A stretch of DNA of 64,000 nucleotides from Actinomycetota bacterium (GTDB taxonomy: Bacteria; Actinomycetota; Acidimicrobiia; Acidimicrobiales; MedAcidi-G1), in assembly GCA_018673475.1 (NCBI GenBank), contig JABHCN010000048.1, positions 1-64,000 of the forward strand, written 5' to 3'. Position 1 is the first letter of the stretch. Every line of letters starts with the position of its first letter. The position numbers were made by a program, and so were the translations under genes. The notes under the pieces were generated by a model that searched no databases, was not told the DNA's origin, and was given only the letters and a program-made list of their open reading frames with translations. Positions 48,705 to 55,626 of this stretch are shown piece by piece.

Positions 48705-49253
48705 TCAGTTGAGGGACGGATCGTCGGGGTAGGTTCCCATCTGTCCCAACAGGCCGGGCTGTCGCCCCAGCACGGCACCCCAGAGGCCAACCGGGTCCGC
48801 AGAAATTGCATCTGAGGCCTCGGCGTCCACGATGATCCACGAGCCCACAGCCATCTCAACCTCAAGCTGGCCGGCTGACCAGCCTGAATAGCCCGCAAAT
48901 AGGCGCACCGACGAGATCCCGGGCAGATCTGATGGATCGGTGTGGAGGTCCAGAACCCCCAGGTTCTCGAGAAGAGGGCTGACACACGGGTGGCCACCGT
49001 CCGGGGCCCTTCCCAGTCCGACGATGGACTCCAGCGATACCGGCCCACCCGAGTGGACGAGGCCCGGTGGCTCGAGCAGGTCGGCCCATTCAGGAACAGC
49101 ATCGGCAGCTGAGATGTCCGTCGGCCGATTCAGGACAAGTCCCAGCGCACCGTCGGCGGTGTGTTCGATCATGAGCAGGACCGATCGAGAGAAGTTGGGG
49201 TCAGCCAGTTCCGGTGAGGAGACCAGCAGCCTTCCCCTCGTGGAACTGCTCAT
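48705..49253 (-). CDS. YqgE/AlgH (UPF0301) family protein
   Basis: A 182-residue protein of the widespread YqgE family. The N-terminal GRLLVSSPELADPNFSRSVL and the segments GALGLVLNRPT, HSGGPVS and LFAGYSGWSAGQLE are its signatures. The function is uncertain; the family has been linked to alginate regulation in Pseudomonas only. The ATG overlaps the TGA of the tyrosine recombinase by three bases, so it is co-translated with it. It converges on the L,D-transpeptidase gene. Confidence 0.93.
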   Translation of the reverse strand: MSSSTRGRLLVSSPELADPNFSRSVLLMIEHTADGALGLVLNRPTDISAADAVPEWADLLEPPGLVHSGGPVSLESIVGLGRAPDGGHPCVSPLLENLGVLDLHTDPSDLPGISSVRLFAGYSGWSAGQLEVEMAVGSWIIVDAEASDAISADPVGLWGAVLGRQPGLLGQMGTYPDDPSLN

Positions 49254-50287
49254 TCCTCGTTGCCCTTGAGAGCTTGACCGAGGAGGGTGTTTGCGTCCGA
49301 CTGGGATACGGCCCCGACCAGCTCACCGCCGGCGATGGCCGTGTAGATACCGGTGGTTGCGATGCTGGCGTGACCCAGAAAGCTCTGAATCACGTTCATC
49401 GGCACCCCCTGGGCTGCCAACTGGACGCCGGCCGTGTGGCGCAGGGAGTGCAGCGAGCGACCGCCGCTGTCCGGATGGGATTTGCCAGCCAGGCCAGCCT
49501 GACCATAGAGGGTCCTGAGCCAGTAGCGCAGGCGGCGATAGTTGAACCGCTCACCGTCGTTGGTCAAGAACAGGGGATCCTCCGAGCCGGCACGCCCATA
49601 GCGGTCTTCGCGCTCTTTGTGCCAGGACCTGTTGGCATCAGCCAGCTCAGGTGACAGCGGAAGGCGTCGGATCTTGTGACCCTTGCCCATGACATGCATC
49701 ATCCACGTCGCCCTGTCAGCCCTGTCGTCGACCCGCTCCCTGGTTACCCAGCCCAGGTCGGCCGAGGTCAACTCTGAGGCGCGGAGACCCAGGACCGCCA
49801 GAAAGGCGCACATTGCCAGATCCCGTGCGGGCCATCTGACGCTGCTGACAGGTTCCCGGGGGTTCTTGGCCTCCCTGTAGAGCCTTCCGATCTCATCGGG
49901 GCGGAGATACTCGGGATCAACCTGAGGAACCGCCAACTTGGCGATCTTTCGTATCCGGTTGATGTCCGGCACGGTCTCAGCGTGACCATCGGCGATGCAG
50001 TAGTCAAAAAAGGACTTCAGGGCGGCGAGCGTCTGGGTGAGGGTCGCCTTGGAGACCTTGCCGCTGGCTCGCAGTTCCCGAACCACATCGGTCAGAGAGA
50101 CCTGGTCGAGCGAGCCTGGACCAAACTGGTCAGGTTGGATACCTGCAAAGGAGACCACCCTGCGAACGCCCTGACTGTAGGCGCGGACCGTCGTGGCGGG
50201 TTTGTCCTCATAGAGGGGCAGCCACCGGAGCCACTGATGGAAGACGGTGGCCATGTCCTCCGGGTCAGGTAGGCGGCGATGTGGCAA
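49250..50287 (-). CDS. Tyrosine recombinase (XerC/XerD-like)
   Basis: A 345-residue tyrosine recombinase with an N-terminal SAM-like DNA-binding domain (residues about 15-105) and a catalytic domain. Arg169 (GLRASEL), Lys202 (MGKGHKIR), His280/Arg283 (HSLRHTAG), His306 (LGHASIA) and Tyr315 (GIYTAI) form the full active site. It could be a Xer-type resolvase or a stand-alone integrase. The TTG at 50287 is preferred because GGAGG is eight bases upstream; ATG 50254 is possible. The C-terminus ends SDANTLLGQALKGNEE, and the stop overlaps yqgE. No mobile element borders are visible. Confidence 0.9.
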   Translation of the reverse strand: MPHRRLPDPEDMATVFHQWLRWLPLYEDKPATTVRAYSQGVRRVVSFAGIQPDQFGPGSLDQVSLTDVVRELRASGKVSKATLTQTLAALKSFFDYCIADGHAETVPDINRIRKIAKLAVPQVDPEYLRPDEIGRLYREAKNPREPVSSVRWPARDLAMCAFLAVLGLRASELTSADLGWVTRERVDDRADRATWMMHVMGKGHKIRRLPLSPELADANRSWHKEREDRYGRAGSEDPLFLTNDGERFNYRRLRYWLRTLYGQAGLAGKSHPDSGGRSLHSLRHTAGVQLAAQGVPMNVIQSFLGHASIATTGIYTAIAGGELVGAVSQSDANTLLGQALKGNEE

Positions 50288-53991: not shown

Positions 53992-55626
53992 TCATGTGAT
54001 CGAGGAGTCGGAACCGTCCATGGTCATGACCCTCTTCTGCTCGCTTCTGCGCTCCGAATCGAGACGCTCCAGGTCTGATCCGGAAGAGTGGTCCACGTAG
54101 GACATCATCTCGGCAATGGCGCGGTGTCCGGCAACATCGCGGATCAGGGTGTGCATCTCCTGGCAGACCCGTCTGTAGGCGGGATGTCCCTGTGGAGATG
54201 TGCGTAGCTCGAGAACATGCATGGCCTCTCTGGCGTTCATGTGCATCATGTAGCGGACCCGGTAGGCAAGGGCTGCCGCATACGGAGCCTGATCGGGGAG
54301 AGCCGGTTCGAGAGCATCATGTAGGGCCGCTGAGCGCTCCATGGAGGCGTCGAAACGGTCAGCAAGACCTGCGTCGCCGACCTCCGGAGGCCGCACGAAG
54401 CCGTGCGAGGTGCTTAGGCGCTGCCAGTCGAGGGTCAGCATCCGGTGGCGTTGCAGGTCGCGGAACGCCCCGTAGTCGGAGAGGATGTCGAATCGGTAGG
54501 AGGGCCGCTCGAGCGCCCGGCCCGGTCGGTGGCGCCGGTTGGAGCGGTCTCCTACGAGAGCCCTCAGAACGCTGAGGCGTTCATCGACGGTCATGGTCCT
54601 GACGCGCTCTTCGACAAATCGGTCCGACTGGTTCGTGAACGGGTACAGCGCTGCGGCCACCAGCTTGACCTCGGCATCAGGATCAAAGTCGGTCAGGTCG
54701 ACAAGAGGCCCGGCATCAGGAACTTCCCTGTCGGGGAACAGGCCTTCGGCCACGTCGGCGAGCCGGTCCCTGCAGTCGGCCCCGTAGGCACCGGTGGCCT
54801 CTCCCCTGTCGGGCAGGTCGACACGCTTGAGGAATGACGGAATGACCTTCCGAAGCTCGGCCAGCATCAACTCGGCGTAGGACCTGGCCTCTGGAAGAAC
54901 ATGCGCACGCATGCGGATGAGCAGTGCCTCGTAGGCCTGTCCTGAGGCGTAGATGCCGACATTTGACAGCGATGCCGCAGGGAGCATTCCCCTCACAGAG
55001 TCGAATGCCTTGGCCGCCACCGCCTGGCGATAGACGAAGTCCGAGTCGCTGTCAGCCTTCGGTGCCACGGTGCGGAAATGATTGGCCATGAGCGGGACCA
55101 TCTCGGCGTAGTTCTCAAACAGCCTGTCCATGTCTGAGATGTACCTGGCTCCGAGGGCCGAGGACAAGATCTCCGGATCGCGGTAGTAGCGGTACCTTCC
55201 GCCGAGCCTCGAGTCGTAGGCGATGTAGCGCGTCGACTGTTCGAGATAGGACATCAGGCGTCCCCACTCGAGCACCTTTGTCAGGAGGTTGGAAGCCTGC
55301 TCACAGGCGAGGTGCACACCTCCCAGCTGGGCAACGCTGTCGTCTCCGTACTCGAAGAAGACACGGTCATAGAGCTCCTCGGCACGACGCAGGCCGACAG
55401 TTGCGTCGATCGTCTCGTCGCCGGAGATATCCAGTTCGCCCACGAACTCTTCAAGAAACAGACGACGAAGGCTCTTGTCGGAACGGGAGTAGCGTGCGAA
55501 GAGGGCTCCCTTGACCACCTCCGGCAGGTTGACGAGGGCAAATACCGGCTGGTCAAGGTTGGTGAAGTAGCGCCGCAGGACGTCGGCTTCCTCGGAGCTG
55601 AAACCCTCGGCGATGTAGGTGGACAC
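53992..55626 (-). CDS. Double ThyX-like protein (FAD-dependent thymidylate synthase fold)
   Basis: A 544-residue protein, about twice the usual ThyX length. The first half (to about residue 270) has SVAQLGGVHLACEQ and WGRLMSYLEQSTRY (residues 121-134), matching the ThyX motif RHR...S...S.RY except that RH has become WG. It also has ARSYAELMLAELR following VLPE. The second half has RHR (393-395) but lacks the S..RY part, and the C-terminal LELRTSP-type segment is kept. The two halves thus split one motif between them. True ThyX activity is doubtful; a flavin-binding role is inferred. The GTG start has a TAGCCT box eight bases upstream. Confidence 0.75.
   Translation of the reverse strand: MSTYIAEGFSSEEADVLRRYFTNLDQPVFALVNLPEVVKGALFARYSRSDKSLRRLFLEEFVGELDISGDETIDATVGLRRAEELYDRVFFEYGDDSVAQLGGVHLACEQASNLLTKVLEWGRLMSYLEQSTRYIAYDSRLGGRYRYYRDPEILSSALGARYISDMDRLFENYAEMVPLMANHFRTVAPKADSDSDFVYRQAVAAKAFDSVRGMLPAASLSNVGIYASGQAYEALLIRMRAHVLPEARSYAELMLAELRKVIPSFLKRVDLPDRGEATGAYGADCRDRLADVAEGLFPDREVPDAGPLVDLTDFDPDAEVKLVAAALYPFTNQSDRFVEERVRTMTVDERLSVLRALVGDRSNRRHRPGRALERPSYRFDILSDYGAFRDLQRHRMLTLDWQRLSTSHGFVRPPEVGDAGLADRFDASMERSAALHDALEPALPDQAPYAAALAYRVRYMMHMNAREAMHVLELRTSPQGHPAYRRVCQEMHTLIRDVAGHRAIAEMMSYVDHSSGSDLERLDSERRSEQKRVMTMDGSDSSIT

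Follow-up and report, generated by a model that had tools for sequence, protein, structure and literature searches.

Can a protein that carries the thymidylate synthase ThyX motif in two incomplete pieces, one in each of two fused domains, still serve as the thymidylate synthase of a cell? The question is raised by a 544-residue ORF with a GTG start at positions 53992-55626 of the window (the whole 64,000-nucleotide stretch of DNA analysed here). A first-pass annotation had placed the ORF at exactly these coordinates, which stood, except that the gene lies on the minus strand. Its description of the protein as two ThyX-like halves is strongly supported by independent domain matches, invariant residues and published subunit assignments. 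The Pfam Thy1 profile (PF02511, cut-off 24.8 bits) matched each half by itself, the N half with 55.6 bits (E 2.6e-15, 54835-55389) and the C half with 66.7 bits (E 1e-18, 54130-54687), and Thymidylat_synt (PF00303), the ThyA domain, was absent among the Pfam matches. Since the protein scored 30.9 bits against the NCBIfam thyX equivalog model TIGR02170, below its cut-off of 87.9, and a single-sequence phmmer comparison with solved structures gave no match, it is a divergent member of the ThyX family. In NCBI annotation, these proteins already bear the name FAD-dependent thymidylate synthase; we refer to the two-domain form as the double ThyX.

The double was modelled with AlphaFold2 from 36 sequences; the N-half motif was poorly modelled until four more divergent sequences had been added. 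A fold unrelated to ThyX would have spoken against the first-pass reading. Instead, the C half aligned over the whole domain with T. maritima ThyX 1o26 (Z 16.8, rmsd 2.4, 192 residues). Among the matches listed, in which C-half rows dominate, the match to solved structures covers the C half only, and the ThyX fold of the N half is supported by its profile match (55.6 bits) and by the order of its predicted secondary structure. At full length, the model matched the predicted structures of two phage doubles.

A complete RHRx7SxRY motif was not found inside either domain: RHR occurs in the C half only and SxRY in the N half only (Table 1). As had been read from the sequence, the N half contains GRLMSYLEQSTRY with Trp121-Gly122 in place of Arg-His, and the C half has RHR at residues 393-395 and no Ser..Arg-Tyr. 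Beyond these observations, the N half also keeps the equivalent of the distal Arg147, and the equivalent of the catalytic Arg174 is kept by the C half alone. The fused chain as a whole contains the dUMP-site residues of either face (74/75/78/174 and 86/88/90/147), except Gln75.

Table 1. Features of the double ThyX gene in the window (residue equivalents in T. maritima ThyX numbering; n = 164 doubles).
Feature	Position	Strand	Basis
Double ThyX gene	53992..55626	-	ORF, two Thy1 domains; AlphaFold2 mean pLDDT 84.8, pTM 0.85
N half, ~residues 24-270, ThyX-like, keeps Glu/Ser/Arg/Arg face of dUMP site	54817..55557	-	own Pfam match, 55.6 bits; conservation
Ser47, aligned with flavin-contacting Ser30	55486..55488	-	164/164
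Trp121-Gly122 replacing Arg78-His79	55261..55266	-	121: W 117, N 25, R 14; 122: G 132, T 24, His 0
GRLMSYLEQSTRY, residues 122-134: E129 (Glu86), S131 (Ser88), R133 (Arg90), Y134 (Tyr91)	55225..55263	-	E, S, R 164/164; Y 163/164
Arg212, equivalent of phosphate-binding Arg147	54991..54993	-	R 164/164 in N half; C-half column variable
C half, ~residues 305-515, ThyX-like, keeps RHR and catalytic Arg174	54082..54714	-	structure match to T. maritima ThyX 1o26
R393-H394-R395, equivalent to Arg78-His79-Arg80	54442..54450	-	164/164
Residues 401-405, C half without Glu86/Ser88/Arg90	54412..54426	-	Glu86 column W 127, F 25; Ser88 and Arg90 columns variable
Arg475, equivalent of catalytic Arg174	54202..54204	-	C half 164/164; N-half gapless position M/L/F

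The same division was seen across the family. We aligned 164 full-length doubles, of which 49 came from actinobacterial genomes (the window included), 12 from plasmids and phages, and 103 from named genome or viral contigs. Although some members are only 20-29% identical, 15 columns are invariant: A44, S47, R48, S97, E129, S131, R133, R212 and P216 in the N half, which include Ser30, Glu86, Ser88, Arg90, Arg147 and Pro151 of T. maritima ThyX, and R393, H394, R395, L474, R475 and R485 in the C half, which include Arg78, His79, Arg80 and Arg174. Neither His79 nor Arg174 (at the gapless position) occurs in any of the 164 N halves, and the Ser88, Arg90 and Arg147 columns of the C half are variable. 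The invariants were the same among 14 doubles that share only 20-29% identity with the first of them, and a separate alignment with 32 single-domain ThyX proteins gave the same contrast between halves. Two canonical contacts have changed: Asp takes the place of Gln75 in 160 of the 164 C halves, and that of His53 in 132 of the 164 N halves (the actinobacterial type), with His kept in the remaining 32. The FAD-side Arg165 belongs to the C half of actinobacterial-type doubles and to the N half of the Bacillus and Paenibacillus plasmid copies. The N half also contains a family-wide A-x-x-S-R motif (residues 44-48, window 55483-55497), whose Arg48 lacks an evident equivalent in single ThyX proteins.

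Normal ThyX forms homotetramers, with each dUMP/FAD site common to several subunits. Published structures assign the residues of such sites to individual chains. In crystals of PolB, a ThyX-fold UMP/dUMP methylase, the nucleotide is bound by Phe79, Arg82, His83, Arg86 and Arg193 of one monomer, and the neighbouring monomer contributes Glu94', Ser96', Ala97', Arg98' and Arg166' (PMC5003785). According to a mapping made in this analysis (minus 8 up to residue 98; Arg166 and Arg193 by alignment), these contacts correspond to 71/74/75/78/174 and 86'/88'/89'/90'/147' in T. maritima ThyX. In PBCV-1 ThyX, Gln75 and Arg182 come from monomer A and Ser88 and Gln89 from monomer B (PMC3498832); docking to H. 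pylori ThyX placed A:Arg197 together with C:Arg109 and C:Tyr110 (PMC4632503), and Ser30 of ThyX contacts the flavin C4=O (PMC11940539). Since the crystals assign Glu86/Ser88/Arg90/Arg147 to one subunit and Arg78/Arg174 to its neighbour, the first of these faces falls in the N half and the second in the C half. When the residues are counted as four sequence blocks (74/78, 86-91, 147 and 174), one of eight random assignments would give the correct partition by chance; the blocks are not mutually independent, and the weight of the partition lies in the invariance of these positions and hardly any others. Recurring without exception in 164 homologues, the split lies far beyond chance. Although Arg147 and Arg174 are far along the chain from the motif, each is retained in the half predicted from structure. 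Together, the invariant residues and the published assignments strongly support the earlier suggestion of a composite site between the halves, and the sequence also favours the view that a half by itself would not be a normal thymidylate synthase.

We propose that the double is very probably the thymidylate synthase of the cell, a tandem-fused and subfunctionalised ThyX with a composite site. In a normal ThyX site, one subunit contributes Arg74, Gln75, Arg78 and the dUMP-activating Arg174, and its neighbour Glu86, Ser88, Arg90, Tyr91 and Arg147. After fusion, the C half would have retained the first face alone and the N half the second alone. Since each half retained a single face, every N-C interface would hold one live and one dead site, giving one composite site per chain; the live pairing would be either intra-chain or inter-chain. 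The predicted assembly is a homodimer, in effect a pseudo-tetramer, in which FAD and dUMP would each have two sites rather than four, and which would convert dUMP to dTMP with methylene-tetrahydrofolate and NAD(P)H. The reaction is probably ordinary, the novelty lying in the architecture.

A homologue of ThyX need not make thymidylate: the C. glutamicum homologue is reported to be dispensable for thymidylate synthesis (PDB titles 3ge9, 3fnn), so homology alone is no proof of the double's role. The first-pass annotation had proposed looking for another thyX or thyA, and profile matches in the genome of the window (94.6% complete) revealed no second Thy1 and no ThyA. Among 41 genomes (this one and 40 relatives, including the single-contig assemblies G026 and G030), 30 are near-complete; the double was found in 30/30 of these, all of an Acidimicrobiales-like order, and a second ThyX in none. 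This assignment of the window's organism is drawn from the nearest named contigs, with 93% identity to a MAG labelled Candidatus Microthrix. Neither ThyA nor DHFR was detected in any of the 41. ThyX, in contrast to ThyA, gives tetrahydrofolate (PMC4177761), and the absence of DHFR fits this chemistry. A member of the same class (G216) has no Thy1 and carries ThyA directly adjoining DHFR.

The pattern extended to a sample of 296 genomes from the phylum, 86 of which contain both halves. DHFR accompanied strong ThyA in 31/31 genomes, and was matched in three of the 86 double-bearing genomes, twice on small ThyA-carrying contigs and once marginally. We considered three cases of ThyA apparently coexisting with the double and rejected them. 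The only strong ThyA among the 86 (G238) lies on a 7-kb phage-like contig and is broken by an insert that bears a GIY-YIG ORF, that of G168 is a partial copy on a 3.8-kb contig, and that of G269 is a weak match. The G238 gene (L201:1965-3886, G238:C39) is split by about 1 kb containing the GIY-YIG endonuclease ORF and adjoins DHFR and a TROVE/Ro60-like gene; the split is likely due to an intron-like insert, in which no Rfam family was found at threshold. Two contigs labelled as Bifidobacterium breve MAG (L106, L150), probably in error for Acidimicrobiia, code for proteins that share 66-70% identity with the window protein.

Within the window, the neighbours of the double are ordinary chromosomal genes, none of which indicates a special pathway. 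Upstream, an M20-type peptidase gene on the same strand stops 12 bases short of the double. Close by are a small acidic ORF and genes for a GNAT acetyltransferase, a NUDIX hydrolase, an enoyl-CoA hydratase and a DEAD-box helicase. The minus strand also carries, 3.7 kb away (49250-50287), a tyrosine recombinase gene of the phage integrase type, with no sign that it belongs with the double.

Doubles also occur on phages and plasmids. As the genome searches covered one phylum, the spread elsewhere is a lower bound given by plasmid and phage matches; scans of viral contigs, in which the window protein and a number of further queries were used, gave no match. In jumbo phage Tunturi_5, the double (gp50) is close to genes for dCMP deaminase (gp49) and dUTPase (gp47), and the double of a Euzebya plasmid has dcd some 0.7 kb upstream. 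On Bacillus and Paenibacillus plasmids of about 200 kb (L164, L165, L166, L169), the double is near DUF1257/DUF2997, AAA ATPase or UvrD-type helicase genes; these plasmids may be phage-plasmids, since the one from P. rhizovicinus is also filed as viral in IMG/VR. A Parabacteroides distasonis record named 'plasmid 45' (L163, NZ_OY725790.1) carries an actinobacterial-type double with 45% identity. A split-gene double in Vibrio phages, suspected from two annotated names, was discarded, as the match falls inside a single 461-aa gene. In a tree of the halves, N halves formed one group (100/99) and C halves another (90/95). A single old fusion is the simplest reading, with finer placement unsure owing to long branches.

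Could the double instead catalyse another flavin-dependent reaction, such as UMP methylation, as PolB does, or hydroxymethylation, with thymidylate coming from elsewhere? PolB shows that the ThyX fold can take UMP, and the replacement of His53 and Gln75 in actinobacterial doubles speaks for such a reaction. We nevertheless regard this as very improbable, since the 41 genomes have no other synthase and dUMP-producing genes lie near the phage and plasmid copies. Salvage is possible in the genus of the window, which has a thymidine kinase. However, salvage in place of synthesis was rejected: thymidylate kinase is present in 30/30 near-complete genomes and thymidine kinase in 20/30, so that ten double-bearing genomes, one of them reported as 100% complete, lack the latter. 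The first-pass idea of a flavoenzyme with a new reaction therefore found no support, the double being the only detectable thymidylate synthase in an order that lacks DHFR. A further reading, in which the asymmetry of an obligate pseudo-heteromeric synthase changed its chemistry as well as its architecture, is unlikely; in the actinobacterial type, Asp in place of His53 and Gln75 may alter the handling of folate or of another one-carbon donor.

We give still less credence to a dead relic or regulatory protein, whether one half or the whole, with the real synthase drawn from an unrecognised family. Half of the ThyX motif is indeed missing from each half, the score against the NCBIfam equivalog model falls well short, and an atypical, non-essential ThyX is known in C. 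glutamicum (PDB titles). Yet the catalytic and dUMP-binding charged residues all survive, except Gln75, each in one half, and no other positions of the protein are as constrained; nor would a relic be expected throughout an order. Decay to a pseudogene was rejected in view of the universality of the double and the invariance of the split. Least credible of all is that the halves work independently, each with a rearranged site of its own and no composite one. The actinobacterial N half does keep Arg80 and has an Arg adjoining position 174 (Arg238 or Arg240), and 14 of 164 N halves have Arg at position 78. However, every N half lacks His79, the C half lacks a conserved Ser88 and Arg147, and the N halves of phages and Bacillota are also without Arg80 and mostly without the nearby Arg.

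A composite-site synthase can be set against known relatives. The double shares with ThyX (EC 2.1.1.148; PF02511; T. maritima TM0449, M. tuberculosis ThyX) its fold and its catalytic and substrate residues, and is likewise distributed opposite to ThyA, without need of DHFR. It differs in having two fused domains with one face each, between which RHRx7SxRY is divided, in the replacement of Gln75 (and of His53 in actinobacterial-type doubles), and in a predicted assembly with two sites instead of four. PolB, from polyoxin biosynthesis, has the ThyX fold, a two-monomer dUMP site and the residue partition seen in the double, but is a single-domain homotetramer with four equal sites and turns over UMP faster than dUMP. 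Double architecture and partition are both shared by long phage ThyX proteins (Microcystis phage Ma-LMM01 gp020, 491 aa; PHROG 36506), annotated simply as thymidylate synthase. Their predicted fold matches the window double over the full length, whereas identity is only 20-30% and His53 is kept in the phage N half. The atypical C. glutamicum ThyX has the same fold but is a single domain, and its host uses ThyA (3ge9, 3fnn).

No paper describing the double ThyX architecture was found in a literature search that covered few subscription journals, so an earlier account may exist. For the recognition of ThyX genes, the consequence is that single-domain motif searches and the NCBIfam equivalog model miss doubles. 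The double also makes the ThyX mechanism testable, as the faces of the site can be mutated singly within one chain, which is impossible in a homotetramer. Altogether, a widespread bacterial lineage appears, from its gene content and conserved residues, to depend on a fused enzyme each half of which lacks half of its active site. The double would be a natural version of inter-subunit complementation, in essential thymidylate synthesis.
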